DNA of 64,000 nucleotides from Bradyrhizobium huanghuaihaiense (GTDB lineage Bacteria; Pseudomonadota; Alphaproteobacteria; Rhizobiales; Xanthobacteraceae), in the NCBI RefSeq assembly GCF_007830635.1, contig NZ_VLLA01000004.1, forward strand, positions 124,001 to 188,000, given 5' to 3'. The notes under the pieces are model-generated. The model was not told the DNA's origin, searched no databases, and was given only the letters and a program-made list of their open reading frames with translations. Below are positions 1 through 9,033 of the stretch, piece after piece. The first letter of the stretch is position 1. Each line of letters starts with the position of its first letter. The position numbers were made by a program, and so were the translations under genes.

Positions 1-131
1 ATCGCGCCCACTGCGTCGGGCGCTCGATCCGGAAATGTGACGTCTATTGTCGCGGCTCTGACCACCGCGGACGTGATCAGCAGACTACCAACAACGAAGC
101 CACGAAGCAGATTCCACGAGAATATGCGCAT
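1..131 (-). CDS. Secreted protein of unknown function, 3' end outside window
   Basis: Only the first 43 codons are inside the window, so no function can be assigned. The ATG at 131 opens a classical Sec signal peptide: a basic residue near the N-terminus, a hydrophobic core (about residues 8-22) and an Ala-rich cleavage region ending near VVRAA. The start lies 13 nt downstream of the stop of the hydrolase gene on the same strand, with a GGGAAAG purine stretch upstream. The two genes therefore probably form one operon for exported proteins. Confidence 0.6.
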   Translation of the reverse strand, partial: MRIFSWNLLRGFVVGSLLITSAVVRAATIDVTFPDRAPDAVGA

Positions 132-144
132 GGCCGCTTTCCCA

Positions 145-1725
145 CTACGGAGCGAACTCCCAGTATTTGGGCGGCGGCGGGTTGGCCGGTACCGGTATGA
201 TCTGCCGAAGCCGCTTGTTTGGTGGCCGTACACCATCGAGCAGCAATCCCATGTCATCGATCAATGACCTGTTGGTGGCGAACGTGTCATGGTTCAGTCC
301 AAACAACTCGTCGCCCATTCTGGTGACGTCGATTGAATCAATTCCCGGCAACGTTAGCGGCTTACCATACACATATCCCGCTCGCGGCACGTTTCTTGCC
401 GCCTTCATAGATGCCAGAAGTGTCTTGTCTGAAGCCGATGCATACAACGTCACACCAGTGAGCAGCCCCTGAACGCCTGGAACGAACCGCATAAACTGGT
501 CCTTATCGACGTCCGGCGCGGCCAGAATCCATTCACCGAACTTCTTACTGTCCTGAGAGGACGCTTGGCCTCGAAGCGCATTCAGCACAAGATAGTTGCC
601 CATACTGTGGGCCACAATATTTACCCGCCTTATCCCAAGCTCATCACGAAGCAATCGGAGAAGCTCTAGAAAGCTATCGCTGTCAGTCAGGGCGCTATCT
701 CGATCGTAGAGATAAGACCGCGCCAAATCGAGCGGGTTTCTCGCGTTACCCCAAGAAGGCCACGAGTACAAAACAGGCAAGCCCTTGTACTGGAGATCCC
801 AGAAGACCTGAGCGGCTCTATATACGGCATCGTCAAAAGTGTTGTTGAAGCCGTGTACAAACACGAGCGCTTCGGTAGTGCGCGCCGCCTTAGCCGTATC
901 AGACCACGTAGGCTTTCCGATAACGCCTTGCCTAGAAATTACAAAGTGCTTTCCAGGATCGAGTTTCTCTTCATAAGTTCCGATGAGTGCCTCGCGGATT
1001 TTCGGGACCCGTACGTTCCCCATCTTGTGGTCGTCCGGAATCCTAACACGAAGACCGCCGAATGTGATGGTTGTGCCTCGCTTTTCGCTAAACGACTTCT
1101 GCTCACGTGCTCTCGTCGTCGCAAACAAAAAGTCGATCGTGCGCGGATCAGGATCTGGGCCTGTCGCTAACGCGGCACCTGCACTAACCATTGGCTCTTC
1201 CCGCAGATTACTCCCAAATGCGAGATTTGGTCGGTTACTTTCGAAGATTCGAAAGTCGATTCGGAAAGCGAAGGCGTCTATCAGGCCGACCTCCGTATTG
1301 TAGCCGATGAGATAATAGCTCCGTTGGCCTCCAGCGGCGACAACTGCGCCCGGATCACCGCGCAGCAGGTCATGAGTCAGCTCTACTTCAAAAAAGTACC
1401 TTGGTTTCACGTACCCGCTGGCAATGACTGAGGCTTTTCGGGGCAAGGACAAGTCTTGGACTTGTTCGGAAAGCTTGTCGCCATTCACCGACAGATGCTC
1501 GAATATCTTTGACTCAAGAACCGGCCTGAAAGCAGTTAAGTCATTGGATCCAAAGGCCAAGAAGATATCCGTTGCAACCTGCACAGGATCTGCTGCACCC
1601 AAGTCGGGACTTTGACTTCCTTGGGTCGCAAGGGCCAGAGGCGCGGGCGCCTGCGGCCATGCCGGTGAACACACGAGGTAAAAAAAACTCAATACGGCTA
1701 AAACCGGAATACGGCACTTGATCAT
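145..1725 (-). CDS. Secreted alpha/beta hydrolase, DUF900 esterase/lipase type
   Basis: This 526-residue protein begins with a Sec signal peptide (about residues 1-24, ending near PAWPQA). After a roughly 170-residue N-terminal region of unknown function comes a DUF900 alpha/beta hydrolase domain (about 195-500). Visible landmarks are the DFLFATTR entry motif near 198, the oxyanion-hole loop HGFNNTF at 291, and the nucleophile elbow AHSMGN with Ser374. AAPDVD follows later as the likely acid, and NHDTF as the likely His loop. Proteins of this family are serine hydrolases of mostly unknown substrate. A GAGG motif precedes the ATG. The stop is 13 nt from the next exported-protein gene, which suggests cotranscription. 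Base composition is lower in G+C than in the core genes further right. Confidence 0.85.
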   Translation of the reverse strand: MIKCRIPVLAVLSFFYLVCSPAWPQAPAPLALATQGSQSPDLGAADPVQVATDIFLAFGSNDLTAFRPVLESKIFEHLSVNGDKLSEQVQDLSLPRKASVIASGYVKPRYFFEVELTHDLLRGDPGAVVAAGGQRSYYLIGYNTEVGLIDAFAFRIDFRIFESNRPNLAFGSNLREEPMVSAGAALATGPDPDPRTIDFLFATTRAREQKSFSEKRGTTITFGGLRVRIPDDHKMGNVRVPKIREALIGTYEEKLDPGKHFVISRQGVIGKPTWSDTAKAARTTEALVFVHGFNNTFDDAVYRAAQVFWDLQYKGLPVLYSWPSWGNARNPLDLARSYLYDRDSALTDSDSFLELLRLLRDELGIRRVNIVAHSMGNYLVLNALRGQASSQDSKKFGEWILAAPDVDKDQFMRFVPGVQGLLTGVTLYASASDKTLLASMKAARNVPRAGYVYGKPLTLPGIDSIDVTRMGDELFGLNHDTFATNRSLIDDMGLLLDGVRPPNKRLRQIIPVPANPPPPKYWEFAP

Positions 1726-2289
1726 GATGGCCTCGAAGCGATTTTTGAGAGACCCGGAATTCCCGGACGATCAATGCGAGTGAGGCCAATTTTGCTCTAT
1801 GGGAGACCGGTTGTATATCTCTCTATAAACAATCTTTTTCCTGGCTATATCTCTCCCAAGCGTTTTCTGCGATTGCGAGATGTTCCTTGCGGACGGCACT
1901 CGGCCCCGCATCCCGCCTTCGGCGCCGCTATACTGTTGCTCCTCTCCAGCAGCTCGAGGGTGAGCACGTCCGCCCCGGTACTCCCCACGTCATTGTAGCC
2001 ACCTGCCCCATACCAGGGAGCGAACAGCCACCGACCGCGGAAACCGTCCAGGGTTGGTTGAGGGACGGCCTCGCGCATGTCGCATTTAGAGGGCACGCGG
2101 TGCTCTACGATGGCGGGAGGCGCCACCCTCTCACTGTCGAAGAATGGCAGGAGCAGCACTGCCGAGCCGCCGAAGGGCCGTCCCTGCATTGATGTCGACC
2201 AGCATGGCATCTATGGGCATGCGGCAATCATCCTCACGGGTTGTCAACCTTTGGCGAACATGGTGGAAGCACTGTAGGAGAGCACGCAC
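1726..2289. other. 564-bp gap with no supportable gene
   Basis: This gap lies between two divergent operons and must hold both promoters. Open frames of 100-120 codons exist on both strands around 1845-2210, but neither has a recognisable domain, a good ribosome site or clearly coding composition. A TAGGAG ribosome-binding motif for the DUF488 gene lies at about 2275-2280. The middle could be a decayed gene, but I could not identify it. Confidence 0.5.
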
Positions 2290-2802
2290 ATGACGACACT
2301 TTTCACCGTTGGATACGAAGGTTGCAAGCCATCCGACCTGTTCGCGAGCCTTCAGAAAAATGGCGTCAAGCTGCTGATCGACGTCCGAGACGTGCCGATT
2401 TCGCGCAAACCGGGCTTCTCGAAAACTGCCCTTGCGCAGGGATTGGATAAAGCCGGTATCCAATATCTGCACCTTAAGGGGCTTGGCGATCCGAAGCCCG
2501 GGCGGACGGCCGCCCGGGAGGGCCGGTTTTCTGATTTCCGCCGAATATTCGCGGCACACATGATGACTACTGCGGCGCAGCAAGCTTTAACTGATGCTCT
2601 CTCGGCCGCCTCGAAATCCGTTGCATGTTTGCTTTGCTTTGAACAGGATCACACCAATTGCCACCGCTGCATCGTCGCTGATTCGATGGTGAGGCGCGGT
2701 AAGTTTAAGCTTGTTCATTTGAGCGCAGCACCGTTAGCCGGTCACAAAGTGCCGAGGGGCCGAATTTCCTCCGATGACAGGACACCCGCCCACATGGGGT
2801 AG
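2290..2802 (+). CDS. DUF488 family protein
   Basis: The 170-residue product matches the DUF488 family: an N-terminal FTVGYEG motif, a central LIDVRDVP strand-loop, the SRKPGFSK segment and a C-terminal Cys/His cluster (CLLCFE then CHRC). The biochemical role of DUF488 proteins is not established; they are often found in variable genome regions. The gene overlaps the next gene by 29 nt, so the two are probably translationally coupled. An AGGAG motif lies about 10 nt before the ATG. Confidence 0.85.
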   Translation: MTTLFTVGYEGCKPSDLFASLQKNGVKLLIDVRDVPISRKPGFSKTALAQGLDKAGIQYLHLKGLGDPKPGRTAAREGRFSDFRRIFAAHMMTTAAQQALTDALSAASKSVACLLCFEQDHTNCHRCIVADSMVRRGKFKLVHLSAAPLAGHKVPRGRISSDDRTPAHMG

Positions 2803-3547
2803 CACCGAGGCAATAGTGATGGTGAAGGCGGCGCCGCAGGTCGGCCGACGTCATGGTGAAACGGTCTGCTGTGCTGGGATCGATCTATACGGCAATTGGC
2901 TCAGATTGTATCCGGTGTCCTTTCGAACGCTCGAGCAGTCGAAAAAATTTGGCCGCTGGGATCGAATAAGGTTCAACTGGCGACTGCCTAACGATGATAG
3001 GCGGGTCGAGAGCCGCCGAGTGGATCAGCAGTCAATCGAGATTGTCGGCAAGCTGAAGAAATCGGAGCGAGCGGCGTTTCTTGCAAAGGCCGTCGTGACA
3101 AGCTTGGCGCGGGAACGCGAGGCCGGCAGAAGCTTTGCGCTTCTCAGGCCCGAGATCATTGCATTCAAGATCGAAAAAAAGGATGCAGCAGAAGTCAAAG
3201 TGGAAAAAGAGCTATTCGATTCAATCCGCGCGCAAGATGACCTTTTCGCGAAGCAAGTGACCAACAACTACAATCCCTGTCCGTATAATTTCAAATATCG
3301 CTACCGAACTGACGACGGTATTCGCGAAGGTACGTGTCAGGATTGGGAAATCGAGGCCACGTATCATAATTGGTCGCGCGACTATGGTGATCAGCGAGCG
3401 CTTTCCGACATGGAGCGAGTGTTCGGGAAAGAGTATCCGGAGAAAGGAATGCTCTTGGCGATGGGTACCCACTCACTCCATCAAGACACATGGCTCATCA
3501 ACGGAGTGGTGCGCCAAGACGATATTGACCAAGGTTCAATGTTTTAA
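2774..3547 (+). CDS. Conserved hypothetical partner of the DUF488 protein
   Basis: The 257-residue protein has no catalytic motif that I recognise. Its N-terminal core (V-K-A-P...GETVCCAGI...WLRLYPV) resembles conserved proteins that start with a short beta strand followed by a CTAGI-like segment, and I recall such genes beside DUF488 genes. The C-terminal half is rich in aromatic residues (NNYNPCPYNFKYRYR, YHNWSRDYGD). The ATG at 2774 overlaps the DUF488 gene. An alternative ATG at 2819 has a GAGG motif but would cut off part of the first strand, so I keep 2774 with some doubt. The overlap implies that the two products act together. Confidence 0.7.
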   Translation: MTGHPPTWGSTEAIVMVKAAPQVGRRHGETVCCAGIDLYGNWLRLYPVSFRTLEQSKKFGRWDRIRFNWRLPNDDRRVESRRVDQQSIEIVGKLKKSERAAFLAKAVVTSLAREREAGRSFALLRPEIIAFKIEKKDAAEVKVEKELFDSIRAQDDLFAKQVTNNYNPCPYNFKYRYRTDDGIREGTCQDWEIEATYHNWSRDYGDQRALSDMERVFGKEYPEKGMLLAMGTHSLHQDTWLINGVVRQDDIDQGSMF

Positions 3548-3642
3548 CTCACTCTTGGATTCGACATCGGCCTGACCTCATGGTTGTATGGCCAATGGCA
3601 CCTTCGGCACACGCACGCCACGCTACTGAGGGGGCAACCCTT

Positions 3643-3984
3643 CTAGCGTTTATTGCATTCCGCGTAGTAGCCACCGTTGTCTTGGATCCACAGCATGCCT
3701 CCATTCGAACCGGTAGCCTTGTTGGCCACATACTGATCGCGACAAGTCAGCATTCGAGCTTGTCCGGGTTCCTCCGACGAGTAGCTGGGCGAAACGTCCT
3801 TTGGGAAGACGACCGGTGAGCGGAACGTTTGTGGGCTGACCGGGGGTGCGGCCGGCGGCTTGCTCTCGACAGGGGTTACCGGTTGACCCCATGCCGAAAA
3901 GGCGGATGCAAAGACGTCCGCGCCTGACGGTCCCTTCTCGATCGCTAAAATGGCACGGCGCTGCGTCTTGTATTGGAGCGGCAT
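3643..3984 (-). CDS. Small Cys-containing protein, probable damaged N-terminus
   Basis: The last 40 residues (ARMLTCRDQYVANKATG, then WIQDNGGYYAECNKR) look like a conserved small secreted-protein C-terminus with two Cys. They follow a Pro-rich linker (PVTPVESKPPAAPP). The ATG at 3984 gives 113 residues, but the N-terminal part is a poor signal peptide, although AFSAWGQ resembles a cleavage site. The same frame stays open to 4131, next to the broken transposase, so the original 5' end may have been altered by that insertion. I do not know the function. Confidence 0.45.
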   Translation of the reverse strand: MPLQYKTQRRAILAIEKGPSGADVFASAFSAWGQPVTPVESKPPAAPPVSPQTFRSPVVFPKDVSPSYSSEEPGQARMLTCRDQYVANKATGSNGGMLWIQDNGGYYAECNKR

Positions 3985-4123
3985 GTCGAACCAAGAGCGG
4001 TCGTTCAGCAGCTGTAGTTCCGGGAGCGGTCGGCATCGACGTTTGACAGTCCGACGAGGAAAAAGCCGTCGGTGACTTTGACAGCTAATCCGTCGTTCGT
4101 GAAGAACGTCCCTGAGCACCGTT

Positions 4124-5453
4124 TTACGCAAGGTGTGGTTGCGATAGGTGGCGACAGAGTATCCATAACAGGCCGCATAAAAGTTCGGTGAGCCAGCGGC
4201 GGAGCAGGCTGAAGTTGTAGCCGGCGGCGGCGAGCACGGCGTTGGTGCGGTCGCCGTCGCGACCCTTGAGATGGTTACGGCGCATTCGGTGGTCGTCCTT
4301 GAGATGGCCGATCACAGGCTCGACGGCGGCGCGACGCCGCATCTCGCGGCGGATGGCTTTGGTGACACGGCGAACCTGGCCGCTGATCCAGACCTTGAAT
4401 CGGTCAGGATAGTTGTGGCCGCGGTAGCCCTTGTCGCCGTGGATGCGGCGCGCTGCAACACCAGTGAGCTTTTCGAGGTCGGCGATGACGGGACCGAGCG
4501 TGTGGCCGTCATAGGGATTGCCGTGCAGGGCCTTGGCATGCAGTACGAACTGCCCGCCTTTGGGCGCGGTGGCAGGCGTGGCAATCGAGACTTTGCAGCC
4601 AAATTCGTAAGGTGCCCGGGCCTTGCCTTTGCCGATGCACTCCACCTCGGGGGCGTGCAACGAGTAGACCTTGGGACCGCGCTGACGCTGCTCTTGATGG
4701 CGAACCCGGTGGGCGAGATCGAGCAGCGGACCAAAGCGATCCTCAAGCGCAGGGTCGCCCTCGATCTTGCGTCTGATGTCACGGATGATGCGGCCAAGCC
4801 GGGTGCGCAGGAATTTGAGCTCTCGCCGGGCACGCTTGAACTGGTGGGCATGCGTGTAGCGTCCCACCATGATGGCGGCGCGCCTGGCCACGCGCAGATA
4901 GCTTTGGCGCAGTTCGACGCTCTCGCGTTTGGCCAAACCGACCAGCTTCTCGATCGCCCGGTGCATGAGCCGCGCATCGCTCGGATGCGCGATCGACTTC
5001 TCCTGTACGGTGGTATCCACAACGAGCCGCTCGAGATCTTTGGTCTCGATTGCCCCAGTTCGATGCGCCACCGAGAGGCTTTCTTGCAACAGCGCGGCGA
5101 TCTGCTCCTCACCCAGCCGCTGGCGCCAGCGGGTCAGCGACGAGCGATCGAATGGCAAGTCGTGCCGGAACACCACCTCGCCGCAGAAATACTGAAAATA
5201 CGGGTTCTCGACCCCCGCACAGCGCCTCGTCAGAGAGATTGTGCATGTGCTTGAGGATGAATAGTCCGGCTACCAATCGTGTCGGCAACGGTGGCTGCCC
5301 CGGACCGAGGCGACAGACCGAACTGAAGCGTCCCGCCAGGAAGTCCCAATCGATCTCCGCCGCCAGACGCACCAACGGATGGCGAAGGTTGATGATCTTC
5401 TCCAGAGATGGACGAAACAGATCGTCCTGACGATCGTCGCGCGGATGGCTCAT
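4124..5453 (-). pseudogene. IS5-family transposase, frameshifted
   Basis: Two frames join into one IS5-type transposase. The N-terminal part starts at ATG 5453 (MSHPRDDRQ, then PTRLVAGLFILKHMHNLSDE) and runs to about 5215. There it leaves frame at a run of five G where about five bases appear to be missing. The rest continues in another frame from about 5210 to 4124 with the DDE-type core: VVDTTVQEK, HGDKGYRG, and the C-terminal EPVIGHLKDDHR...NHLKG. Without the shift it would be about 440 residues. I could not find convincing terminal inverted repeats or target duplications. The element is probably inactive unless programmed frameshifting rescues it. Confidence 0.8.
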
Positions 5454-6043
5454 GGGTTCTCCCCAACAGCGAATCTCGCCGTCAAAGGAATCACGAAGCC
5501 GCCCAATCCGGAATCCAAAAACGCAAGAAAACCAGGACCTACCCACGGCTTTCTTGCAAAATCGAATACTTGCTCGCGTCAAATCACTGCGACAGATCAA
5601 TCGCTTCCGAATTCTTCACGGGCGACTAATCCGGCCAGCGGGGTCGCAGTCAGCGTCTTTAAGAACCCAAGAAGCCATAGGAACGTTGACTTGTCGAATC
5701 CGAAAGGGCGGCCGAGATGTTGATAATCGCCAGCCACCTCCTGCGGATCGTGAGCAGCCGGCGAGGTCAGTCGGATTTCTAGTGATGCCCTCTCCCCGGC
5801 AATGCCTGAGAAGCCTACGCGCGGAATTGGCGTCAGAGCTAGTTTCGCTCAAATAGGCCAGAAAATGAAACATCTACCAAAAGGTTAACGCGCCCCGGCG
5901 CCGGCCCCCCGACTTGAGGCGGCCGCGAATCAGTCTTTGCGTTGCCGTGCCGCAGCTCCAATTGAACGTCTTGACAAAGCACGACTTTAGATTCCGTGAC
6001 CGCCGAGTCGCGATATGATATGGTCTTCGTCATAGAGGCCAAG
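5454..6043. other. 590-bp gap: right flank of the IS and spacer
   Basis: This stretch should contain the right end of the insertion sequence, but the inverted repeat could not be defined by eye. Frames here are short and unlike proteins. Upstream of 6044 there is an AGAGG motif for the Panacea gene. I see no other feature. Confidence 0.4.
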
Positions 6044-6490
6044 ATGAACATTCAGGATGCTTGCGACTACATCATTGTGAGGCTTACGGAGGACGGCGGA
6101 TTTCTGAACGTCCTGAAGTTGCACAAATTGCTTTACTACTGCCAGGCTTGGAGCCTGGCCTTTGGTCGTGGTCCGCTGTTTCCTCAAAACAGTTTTCAGG
6201 CCTGGGTTCATGGGCCCCTAAGCCGCGCCGTCTATGACCGGTTCGTTCAGACGAAGGCGATGTATTCGTCGGTCGGGCTTCCTGATGTCCGGCAAGGTTT
6301 TGATCCGATGGGCCTGACTGAGGCTGACCGCGCCTTTATCAACTCCGTGCTCGAGGTCTACGCCCCGCTTTCCGGCGACCAACTCGAGGAAATGACACAC
6401 CGAGAAGAGCCGTGGATCGAGGCCCGTGCTGGAGTCTCGGCGTCATCAGCGACTTGGGTGAGCTCCTTGAAGCAACGATCGATAGCCTGA
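6044..6490 (+). CDS. Panacea-domain (DUF4065/SocA-like) protein
   Basis: The 148-residue product has the Panacea/DUF4065 pattern: an N-terminal helix IQDACDYIIVRL, the signature LNVLKLHKLLYYCQAWSLAF, the QAWVHGPL segment and the ending LEEMTHREEPWIEARAG. This family includes the proteolytic adaptor/antitoxin SocA and antitoxins of diverse toxin pairs. The ATG at 6044 is preferred over 5996 because AGAGG lies 5 nt upstream. After EARAG the frame loses similarity. A frame change near 6434 would instead read LGVISDLGELLEATIDSLT, so the C-terminus may be shifted. No toxin gene is evident next to it. Confidence 0.75.
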   Translation: MNIQDACDYIIVRLTEDGGFLNVLKLHKLLYYCQAWSLAFGRGPLFPQNSFQAWVHGPLSRAVYDRFVQTKAMYSSVGLPDVRQGFDPMGLTEADRAFINSVLEVYAPLSGDQLEEMTHREEPWIEARAGVSASSATWVSSLKQRSIA

Positions 6491-6522
6491 CATAGAGTCG
6501 GAGTTACCCGGCCCGCAGGCCA

Positions 6523-6651
6523 GTGATCCGATACGTCCAGGAGCGCTTCGCCGCGGAGACAGGGGGGAGATTTTCAAAGCGTATCGCATACGAGCTGAAG
6601 GAACGTAACTGCTTGGGCGGGACTGAAACTGATGCCGAGGCGTCCTTCTGA
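6523..6651 (+). pseudogene. Possible short gene remnant
   Basis: From a GTG at 6523 the frame reads a plausible protein-like segment (RYVQERFAAETGGRFSKR, then IAYELKERNCLGG) and stops at 6649-6651. It has charged amphipathic helices and no low-complexity character. There is no good ribosome site, and I could not name a family. It lies in a stretch where several small frames are broken, so I treat it as a remnant. Confidence 0.2.
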
Positions 6652-6689
6652 CCGACAACGCGACAAGTGGCTTCCCGACAGTCCGTGAG

Positions 6690-7009
6690 GATTACTTGGA
6701 AAAAGATGGTGGCCAAGGCGTCGTTGGTCGTTCGCTACAGTCCCGCTCAGGATAAGGTCTCCCATCCCGTAGCTGGCCGGCCCGAGCTTTACTTCGCTCA
6801 ACGTGAGATCGGCCTCCTTGATCGCCGTAGCGGCAAAGTACTCTTGAGCTTGTGCGAGCGAGCTCGGCGCGGACCTCCTTGCCGGATTTCCAGCCTATGT
6901 TGTAACGCTTGGTCGTGGATCGAGCAGCTTCAAGAACAGCGATTGCGGCATCTGTGAAGCCGCCGCTGGTCCAGAGCTCGAAATGAACTTGAGACGAGTT
7001 GAGGCGCTC
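6690..7009 (-). pseudogene. Frameshifted remnant of an unidentified protein
   Basis: On the minus strand, 7009 to about 6860 reads a natural-looking segment (NSSQVHFELWTSGGFTDAAI, then KRYNIGWKSGKEVRAEL). The reading then continues one frame over, from about 6865 to 6780, as AQEYFAATAIKEADLTLSEV. The join suggests a small deletion or insertion near 6862. The FELWTSGGFT...KRYNIGW pattern recalls C-terminal parts of nuclease-like or accessory proteins, but I cannot assign it with confidence. No intact start is visible. Confidence 0.3.
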
Positions 7010-7021
7010 TTCTGCTTTTGT

Positions 7022-7162
7022 CGCCTTGTAGACCCTTCTGGACCAAGATCGGCGCGCGGCCTGGCAACAGGACGGCAAGGGCTTCAACATCCAGTTGAGC
7101 TGCCTGCCATTGAACGGCCGCCTCGTGGTTCGCGAACCCAAGGCCGACGCGGAGGCGGGGCA
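7022..7162 (+). pseudogene. Small conserved protein remnant, frameshifted
   Basis: The frame ending at a stop at about 7164 reads AWQQDGKGFNIQLSCLPLNG then RLVVREPKADAEAGQ. I recognise this as the C-terminus of a small conserved protein often found on rhizobial mobile elements. Just upstream the matching FWTKIGA segment is in another frame, displaced by an apparent extra CG in GGCGCGCGG near 7055. The gene is therefore probably broken. The last codons overlap the start of the next small gene. Confidence 0.35.
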
Positions 7163-7348
7163 ATGAGCCCAGCCGCCACGCGGGGCTACGACGTCGGCTT
7201 CAAAAGCTGGATGACATACGAAACCCTCGTGCTCGCCAGCAGCGAGCACGAGGCCATCGCCAAGGGCAAGGCCATTTACGGCCTCGCCGGCCTCGGCGAT
7301 TTTTCGTTCAGCGATTGCGGCGAAGGACTGGCTCGCCTAGGTTCATGA
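7163..7348 (+). CDS. Small hypothetical protein, mobile-element type
   Basis: The ATG at 7163 is preceded by a good GGAGG motif 8 nt upstream and opens a 61-residue protein. Its core (YETLVLASSEHEAIAKGKAI, then DFSFSDCGEG) resembles short rhizobial accessory proteins. The final residues after DCGEG look unlike such proteins, so the true C-terminus may be frameshifted. It overlaps the remnant before it, as in a small operon. Function unknown. Confidence 0.5.
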   Translation: MSPAATRGYDVGFKSWMTYETLVLASSEHEAIAKGKAIYGLAGLGDFSFSDCGEGLARLGS

Positions 7349-7570
7349 GCCGGAGGCGCATTCATGAACGTCGTCCTCAAGCCGGGTACGCGTTGACGAT
7401 AGATCTCCGACATATTCATCCGAAGTCGATGGCAGCAGCGCGACGCCTGCCGCATTCAGGCGGTTGCCTCAGCTTCCGGCAGCAGGAGCCAAGCTCAAGA
7501 CGATTGCTCAGAAAACCGCCTCTGTGCAAGACCATGGGTCCCTGTACGCGCAATAAGAGGAAACCGCGCT

Positions 7571-8014
7571 GTGACACTCTCTCTTGACGGCGAAATTCGA
7601 GACGGACGGCATTACATGCAGGTCCGCGTCTATTTCGAAGATACCGATTCCGGCCAGATTGTTTATCACGCGAATTTTTTGCGTTTCATGGAACGTGGCA
7701 GAACGAATTACTTGCGCCTGCTCGGCACCAATCAGCAAGCGCTGCTCGAGGAAACGCGGAACGATGCGCCGGGCTTCGCCTTCGTTGTCCGTTCGATGAC
7801 AATCGATTTTCTAAAACCGGCAGTCTTGGACGACCTGCTTGACATTGTCACGGTCCCGCAAGAGGTGAGAGGCGCGTCGATTGCCTTGCTGCAGGAGTGC
7901 AGGCGCGGGGGTGATCTCTTGGTCTCGGCGCGTGTACGGGTCGCGTTTATCTCAGGCGGAAAAGCGCAGCGCATCCCAAAGGCTCTGAGGCTTGCTATGG
8001 AAGAGCACAGATAA
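7571..8014 (+). CDS. ybgC: YbgC-type acyl-CoA thioesterase, intact copy
   Basis: The 147-residue hotdog-fold protein has the full 4-hydroxybenzoyl-CoA-thioesterase signature YFEDTDSGQIVYHANF, with the catalytic Asp26 and His33 spaced seven residues apart as in E. coli YbgC, followed by ERGRTNYLRLLG. Such enzymes hydrolyse short acyl-CoAs, and in many Proteobacteria ybgC lies beside tol-pal, which is not the case here. The predicted start at 7571 is a GTG. A second, 5'-truncated copy follows 53 nt later. The first copy has lower G+C and clearly differs from the second throughout, so it is not a simple recent duplication. Confidence 0.8.
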   Translation: MTLSLDGEIRDGRHYMQVRVYFEDTDSGQIVYHANFLRFMERGRTNYLRLLGTNQQALLEETRNDAPGFAFVVRSMTIDFLKPAVLDDLLDIVTVPQEVRGASIALLQECRRGGDLLVSARVRVAFISGGKAQRIPKALRLAMEEHR

Positions 8015-8067
8015 ATCTGCCTTTCGTTCACGCTTTAACGCTCCAGCGACCCAATGAAATCAATGCG

Positions 8068-8472
8068 TTGGCCTTTTGTTGCGATATCGTCAAGTCAGAG
8101 TTTTCCGGGATCGTCTATCACGCCAATTATCTGCGCTACATGGAGCGCGGCCGGACCAATCATCTCAGGCTGATGGGCGCCGAGCAGCAGGCGCTGTTCG
8201 AGCAGGTGGAGACGGAAGGCGCCGGCTTTGCCTTCGTCGTGCGCTCGATGCATCTCGATTTCCTCAAGCCCGCGCGGATGGACGACGTGCTCGACGTCGT
8301 GACCTGGCCGATCGCGGTGAAGGGCGCCTCCATCATGCTGGCGCAGGAGGTCCGGCGCGGCGAGGACGTGCTGGTGAAGGCCGAGGTGCGCGTCGCCTTC
8401 ATCAGCGACGGCCGCGCCCAGCCGATCCCGAAATCGATCCGCACCTTGATGAAGGCTGATTTGATTTCCTGA
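8068..8472 (+). pseudogene. ybgC: YbgC thioesterase, 5'-truncated second copy
   Basis: From about 8096 the frame reads a typical YbgC protein (FSGIVYHANYLRYMERGRTN onward, to the C-terminus). Upstream of that point similarity stops abruptly: the expected YYEDTD is replaced by CCDIVKSE, so the catalytic Asp is lost (a Glu stands in its place). The only in-frame start is a TTG at 8068 with no ribosome site. The junction also marks the change from low to high G+C. I infer that the native gene was cut at about 8095 by an insertion or recombination event. Confidence 0.7.
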
Positions 8473-8565: not shown

Positions 8566-9033
8566 ATGTCGCGCCCGCCGCTTCCGCCCTTTACCCGAGA
8601 GACCGCCGCGCAGAAGGCCCGCATGGCCGAGGACGCCTGGAATTCTCGCGATCCGGTGAAAGTCTCGCTCGCCTATACCGAGGACAGCCGCTGGCGTAAC
8701 CGCTCCGAGGTGTTTCAGGGCCGCGAAGCCATCGTCGCCTTCCTCACCCGCAAATGGGAGAAGGAGCAGGACTACCGCCTGATCAAGGATCTCTGGGCCT
8801 TCGACGGCAATCGCATCGCCGTGCGCTTCCAGTACGAATGGCACGATGCAAACGGCCAGTGGTACCGCTCCTACGGCAACGAGCAGTGGGAGTTCGACGA
8901 GCACGGCTTGATGAAACGCCGCGAGGCGTCGATCAACGACATCATGATTGCGGAGAAGGATCGCCGCTTTCACTGGGCGGCGCCGGGGCCGCGGCCGGCG
9001 GATGTGCCGGGGCTGGGGACTGATCCGTTCTGA
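8566..9033 (+). CDS. NTF2-like protein, DUF1348 family
   Basis: This 155-residue protein matches DUF1348, a cone-shaped NTF2-like fold: [40 protein letters not shown], and [20 protein letters not shown]. Family members are small and usually annotated as nuclear transport factor 2 family proteins, with no proven reaction. The ATG at 8566 (MSRPPLPP) is preferred to an upstream one at 8536, because GAGG precedes it and homologues begin close to the FTRE motif. It is the first undamaged gene right of the inferred island boundary. Confidence 0.85.

Follow-up and report, generated by a model that had tools for sequence, protein, structure and literature searches.

The question raised by this locus is why two ybgC reading frames stand one behind the other, in the same orientation, in a 64,000-nucleotide stretch of Bradyrhizobium huanghuaihaiense DNA (the window, to which all positions given without a contig name refer). 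A sequence-only reading had proposed an island boundary inside ybgC, with a full, diverged ybgC to the left of it and a gene lacking its 5' end to the right. Indeed, the left frame (7571..8014, plus strand, 147 aa, EDTD motif intact) scores 142.1 bits against TIGR02799, the YbgC equivalog profile, just above its curated cut-off of 141.35; the right frame (8068..8472) scores 128.0 bits, below the cut-off, and its match starts only at profile position 13, the N-terminal part being missing. The two products share 66% identity over 115 residues, and G+C rises across the boundary as proposed (0.590 in the 4 kb to the left vs. 0.654 in the 4 kb to the right). Upstream of 8103 the right frame is element sequence, in which GTCAAGTCAGAG translates as V-K-S-E; thus, the change from Asp to Glu that had been read at the catalytic residue is an element arm read in frame. 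What belongs to the host gene is a 3' remnant (8103..8472, plus strand), 97% identical to residues 25-149 of the native gene of locus L020 and itself under the TIGR02799 cut-off.

The island edge lies inside ybgC at 8101..8102 (plus strand), where the crossover core of attR is TT. The 5' part of ybgC missing from the window is found in the same genome on another contig (attL, C48:18575-18664), where it is followed by CTCTGACTTGACGTTATC, while the window side of the junction reads GATATCGTCAAGTCAGAG-TT, with the attP half-site P at 8083..8100 (plus strand). Between the final 13 bases of P and the initial 13 of the half-site at C48:18652, reverse complementarity is exact, and the deduced attP is therefore a 13-bp inverted repeat around TT, i.e., a 2-bp core between inverted arms. 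Comparison with the 80 named loci nearest to the window remnant (all Bradyrhizobium) provided the corresponding empty site: ybgC is intact in 63 of them, typically reading GAGGACACGGAT-TT-YTCCGGC, and in 62 of these 63 the C48 fragment (up to TT) and the sequence from 8103 onward abut with zero gap (the left-flank match is absent from the remaining one), which proves the junction. As had been anticipated for relatives without the island, their intact ybgC is joined to the host gene that follows the remnant here (8566..9033, plus strand; a putative DUF1348 gene by its earlier name; tblastn, L020 and others).

The remaining 17 loci (L006-L019, L023, L045, L085) show native sequence starting at the same base as in the window, preceded by a non-native arm ending in CAG(A/T)G. 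Among 265 congeneric genomes, 34 show the attR pattern, including several single-contig ones; this recurrence makes the junction neither a chance event nor an assembly error, and the identical junction in single-contig genomes rules out an assembly artefact. A truncated gene without an island, which would have spoken against an insertion, was not seen: the truncated genes read directly are preceded by an element half-site, except in the eroded case of G107. A tRNA at the ybgC boundary was considered and dropped, as ARAGORN detected none in the 64-kb window. The left copy ends 86 bp before the core, its stop codon being separated from the half-site by a spacer (8015..8082, plus strand), the right part of which recurs in relatives. 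It had been suggested that the element restores the gene that it interrupts; a substitute copy is indeed present, but no new end is fused in frame to the old gene, and what lies upstream of the att site is a separate full copy with its own stop codon.

Beside the attL junction ends a 567-aa protein (IntY, C48:18634-20337) with Resolvase, Recombinase, and Zn-ribbon domains, all above Pfam cut-offs, which by this architecture is a large serine recombinase. Matches to IntY at E<=1e-100 occur in 44 of the 265 congeneric genomes, some of them being fragments or just 40-48% identical; among the 30 loci fetched, 29 adjoin native ybgC codons 1-26 at the same TT, the 30th being the rearranged G056.

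Taken together, these observations support the following reading, to which we assign a probability of roughly 0.87. The window island belongs to a known system, the bipartite tRNA-Val symbiosis ICE (Weisberg et al., 2022), of which it is the small "B" element, so that the island itself is not new, and the boundary in the window is its attR end. IntY would recombine the palindromic attP (13-bp arms, TT) with the TT in the conserved EDTDFSG codons of ybgC. The gene would thereby be split, codons 1-26 staying with the large element (attL, C48) and the remainder with the B element (attR, 8101). The element-borne ybgC would be expressed and would substitute for the broken gene, while its altered site would keep IntY from cutting it. 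Of this reading, the junctions, the core, and the recombinase type, together with the presence, ancestry, purifying selection, and missing attB of the copy, rest directly on sequence; IntY activity, expression, rescue, and immunity are inferred.

The ybgC copy goes with the element. Among the matches listed (down to about E 2e-61), an element-type ybgC of at least 81% identity to the window copy is present in 43 of the 265 genomes, nine of which have two. The native gene is broken at this site in 41 genomes, 34 recognized by the attR pattern and seven by reading variant, rearranged, or eroded junctions (G019, G033, G056, G073, G107, G202, G247), and 40 of these 41 have a full ybgC copy (38 element-type; two, G216 and G264, of another element lineage). 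G216 also has a degraded copy on its attR side, and the 41st genome, G024, shows attL and attR fragments and otherwise just a 5' ybgC piece at a contig end. All 38 broken-native genomes with an element-type copy among the matches listed keep at least one undamaged copy, although second copies are sometimes impaired (damaged in G189, EGTD motif in G030, shortened in G035). Within the same matches, the native gene is intact in five of the 43 genomes with an element copy, and in three of these five the copy is damaged (EDTD motif lost in G011 and G091, a stop in G253); of the other two, the match in G256 is shorter and comes from a fragmented assembly, and G250 has an open copy, its native and element genes both being apparently intact. 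The probability that all three damaged copies would fall by chance in those five of the 43 listed genomes is P=0.0008, or P=0.007 if G011 and G091 represent a single event, which is probably the case.

The position of the copy varies. Some copies sit kilobases away from attR, and in several genomes the first copy is separated from the attR core by other DNA, about 5-16 kb of it. This DNA contains a second ybgC in G030, G033, G034, G035, G131, and G260 and a damaged one in G189 (L176-L180, L188, L205); in such tandem arrays, the DNA after the half-site of the first copy appears by eye unlike the IntY half-site. A recognized half-site is absent just downstream of two of 45 element copies (G216, G112). 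In G112 and G209 (L185, L201), the replacement ybgC adjoins IntY instead of attR, as in a rearranged element. The region upstream of the copy is partly alike by eye in the six cases compared, G494 included. Element-type ybgC was also observed on plasmids, full-length and followed by the P half-site and TT in Bradyrhizobium sp. 187 (NZ_CP064694.1:176863-177306, L261), and broken in Bradyrhizobium sp. 186 (NZ_CP082165.1:92503-92860, L262).

An unrooted protein tree (98 of 197 extracted rows, after removal of duplicates and repeat fetches and with natives limited to 22) places the two window copies in different clades, and similar ancestry of the copies, another outcome that would have told against the island, is thus not seen. 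In one clade (support 100/99), the window copy is among 39 element copies, grouped with six genes of the sister genus g3 and the decayed copy of G091; in the other (100/98) are the native genes of Bradyrhizobium, g3, and g5, along with a few Bradyrhizobium 3' remnants. By this tree, the left ybgC of the window is anciently diverged from the native gene. The median dN/dS of 0.124 for 33 element copies vs. 0.072 for 63 natives indicates purifying selection on the element copies; for second copies of tandem arrays, dN/dS is 0.192 (six sequences, 11 pairs, with a lower dS floor). Decay of the 3' remnants proved uninformative as a gauge of age, since every one of the 35 distinct remnants is still open, with a dN/dS (0.088) near that of the same part of intact natives (0.079).

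The element copies differ from the natives at the insertion site itself. The strict attB pattern GAYTTYTCNGGNATYGT is present in all 80 distinct native genes of Bradyrhizobium and g3 having the EDTD motif (six distinct rows without this motif were excluded from the count) and absent from all 45 distinct element-type copies, as well as from all six genes of the element-type g3 genomes. Native codons TTC-TCC-GGC are replaced by TCC-GGC-CAG or GCY-GGC-CAG in four symbiosis-ICE copies compared, and by TTC-AGC-CAG, TTC-AGC-AAG, or TTC-AGT-AAA in other element lineages; a change from TCN to AGY alters the DNA and retains serine, while the Gly replaced by Gln or Lys in element copies is constant in all motif-bearing natives and in three solved-structure alignments. 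The altered site may thus shield the element copy from IntY. Counting against the idea of recoding, the g5 native (a Thr codon) and the chromosomal G165 gene (which retains TCG-GGT) also lack GAYTTYTCNGGNATYGT; besides, the element lineages may share one recoding event and would not then be independent tests. Extra divergence at the core was considered and dropped, since by itself it is no evidence: identity in the windows starting at -3 to +2 from TT (0.33) ranks with the lowest, yet it is matched or undercut by that of other windows, one of them at 0.25.

Other types of elements at the same site carry a ybgC copy, too. The two halves of ybgC lie on one contig about 19 kb apart in G264, with a 41% identical recombinase and a copy 71% identical to that of the window, and about 61 kb apart in G257, where the recombinase is 48% identical and the copy is inverted; in G255, a ybgC copy accompanies a short remnant (<3 kb). 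All three break ybgC within the same few bases, and their copies fall, with modest support, on the element side of the unrooted tree, outside the native clade, with the chromosomal G165 gene among them. In 6 of 18 g3 genomes (G494, G649, G653, G661, G659, G657; L209, L238-L242), the only ybgC match is wholly or mostly element-type and adjoins the DUF1348 gene. Four of these six genes are element-like over the first 300 nt (78-97% to two element references) and native over the last ~130 nt (73-100% to two g3 natives); in G659, the switch comes only close to the end of the gene, while the element type of G657 extends beyond its stop. The simplest reading of these mosaics is recombination between an element copy and the native remnant.

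A broader scenario would join these observations, and we put it forward tentatively, at somewhat less than even odds. An old mobile ybgC lineage, recoded at the target (native TTY-TCN-GGN changed to TTC-AGY-(CAG/AAR) or to (T/G)CN-GGC-CAG), would ride several serine-recombinase elements that break ybgC, with its own copy protected and the host made dependent on it; in g3, recombination with the remnant would have turned such a copy into the resident gene. If true, this would parallel engineered cleave-and-rescue gene drives. Points against a rescue are the small size of the contrast with intact-native genomes and the higher dN/dS of element copies than of natives. Moreover, ybgC is dispensable in E. 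coli, and the benefit of a rescue is therefore unproven.

Alternatively, the element ybgC might be passenger cargo with a selective role of its own, its position beside the gene that it seems to replace being a by-product of element assembly. The two apparently intact genes of G250, the copies located kilobases from attR or beside IntY (G112, G209), the elevated dN/dS, and the dispensability of ybgC in E. coli would all fit. Nevertheless, we consider it unlikely, given the full copy in 40 of 41 broken-native genomes, the damage to the copy in three of five intact-native genomes (among the matches listed), the copies carried by independent element types at the same site, and the fusion of an element copy with the native remnant in g3.

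The layout of the element bears on a further alternative, a one-part island in ybgC with one half of the gene at each end. The B element occupies positions 1..8100 of the window and starts outside it at C4:116166 (window -7834). Its first bases match a tRNA-Val 3' end (C4:116166-116190, 25/25 bases, the rest of the tRNA gene being absent), and an arm-type tyrosine integrase lies beside them (C4:116332-117798); C39 carries a tRNA-Val that is intact and shares this 3' end. An integrase and a ybgC 5' fragment had both been predicted for this far left end: the former is there, but the latter lies on C48 beside a serine recombinase. One-part islands do occur at the same site in G264 (~19 kb) and G257 (~61 kb), but such an island is highly improbable here, where the tRNA-Val remnant on the left is accompanied by an integrase of its own and the 5' half, on another contig, has a different recombinase as its neighbor. 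A ybgC gene that was duplicated in tandem, then diverged and was truncated without any mobile element, would account for two homologous genes side by side. This is refuted by the empty site, whose flanks meet with zero gap in 62 of 63 intact loci, as well as by the recombinase at attL and the deep tree split between the copies, leaving it a negligible chance.

As to the bipartite element itself, the source genome is a 9.23-Mb draft of 101 contigs, in which the attL half-site and IntY (C48:18575-20337) are on a contig separate from that of the window and the link between C48 and the large element is not closed. As this assembly separates the ybgC halves onto two contigs, the evidence that the layout is bipartite comes from complete relatives, such as the single-contig G027. 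There, with recombinase, attR, and tRNA-Val 3' ends as bounds, the large element spans 1,680.7-2,362.3 kb and lies megabases away from the B element, at 7,934.4-7,939.5 kb. The strain has nitrogenase genes, as nifH is on C47 (C47 and C48 being unlinked in this draft).

The B element is 15.9 kb here vs. ~4.5 kb in G025 and G087, a difference accounted for by an 11.4-kb segment (window part 1..6997, from -4378), which G025, G087, G056, and L006 lack at one common junction (blastn), while G027 breaks elsewhere. The segment edges show no clear target duplication, and insertion here or deletion in the short elements are both possible. Its genes include a DUF900 hydrolase, DUF488, a DDE transposase, and a SocA-like gene; at 4124-5600 (minus strand), a DDE-domain transposase-like frame (4124-5176) overlaps a second long frame (5109-5600), the two probably being one insertion sequence that a frameshift has broken up. 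To the left of the window and beside IntV, two successive frames (C4:118394-119486), neither of which matched Pfam, resemble by eye one frameshift-split tyrosine integrase. A tRNA-Val 3' end beyond the two expected per genome was observed at G000:C43:18559 and at G087:C1:1824863, perhaps as another integration scar.

In G056, the half-sites are swapped (L137:3150-3260; L172:12630-12830): the native 5' half is followed by TT and reversed P, and reversed P' by AA and the native 3' half. Judged by their sequence, these junctions match the expected outcome of strand exchange with a reversed attP, which the palindromic arms would enable. The USDA6 element has been called locked, its att site having been transposed beside its partner (Weisberg et al., 2022; PMC9239051, PMC9174649); the TT/AA core mismatch seen in G056 is a possible alternative, base-level account of this locked symbiosis ICE.

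In the accessible text of the same reports, the symbiosis ICE is described as bipartite, its small B element lying near ybgC, and tRNA-Val and ybgC are given as the genes that hold its att sites (Weisberg et al., 2022; PMC9239051, PMC9174649). The window island shares with it the ybgC target, the tRNA-Val partner, the integrase at the border of each element, and halves separated by inversion. The query used there for the IntY attachment sequence, a 78-base ybgC 5' end, stops just before the TT found here and matches the window element copy at 65/78 positions vs. 61/78 for the native fragment; in the text available to us, these accounts do not mention a replacement gene or type IntY as a serine recombinase. 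Searches for att sites seeded with the ybgC 5' end will thus match the paralogous copy besides the true site. The same paralogy could confuse the location of B elements by BLAST with ybgC, as in one available account (PMC13280949), and makes ybgC unsafe as a simple single-copy marker in these bacteria.

Kaneko et al. (2011; PMC3927601), as far as their text was available, described B. japonicum symbiosis islands A and B, in which segments of 680-695 kb and 4-6 kb lie far apart, one with trnV and the other with its 45-bp 3' end. In USDA110, the 680-kb and 6-kb segments, with which the G027 element bounds agree, showed no terminal duplication at the other end; the rearrangement was called unknown in that text, and the ybgC site found here accounts for that end. 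Likewise, a further report, in the part that was accessible, puts island B of its B. japonicum strains at 4,160 bp, with an integrase gene and ybgC at the borders (PMC11218460). Within the accessible literature, neither the replacement gene and its missing attB nor the TT core and the serine type of IntY were found to have been described. With the same limit, four features were not found in print: the 2-bp TT crossover between inverted 13-bp arms, the ybgC copy accompanying the element in 40 of 41 broken-ybgC genomes, the lack of the insertion site in element copies (present in 0/45 vs. 80/80 natives), and the 6 of 18 g3 genomes in which the one ybgC match is element-type over all or most of its length. 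Symbiosis ICEs move nitrogen-fixation genes among soil Bradyrhizobium, soybean symbionts included, and with the second attachment site placed to the base and its recombinase typed, their excision, locking, and transfer become testable.

According to the accessible part of a review (PMC5704250), serine integrases recombine 2-bp identical sequences (Tn4451) and integrate inside protein-coding genes. The element described here shares both the 2-bp identity at the crossover and the protein-coding target, but the site-specific serine-recombinase IMEs of that text disrupt genes dispensable to the host, whereas this one carries a full copy of the disrupted gene (PMC5704250). This suggests that a conserved protein gene may be usable as a landing site by way of a carried copy that the element's own integrase should not recognize. 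Elements such as SXT at prfC and prophages at icd rebuild the end of the gene that they enter, and its function is retained. Host function would be kept here as well, but where those elements fuse a new end to the old gene, the B element brings a separate, full-length, diverged gene.
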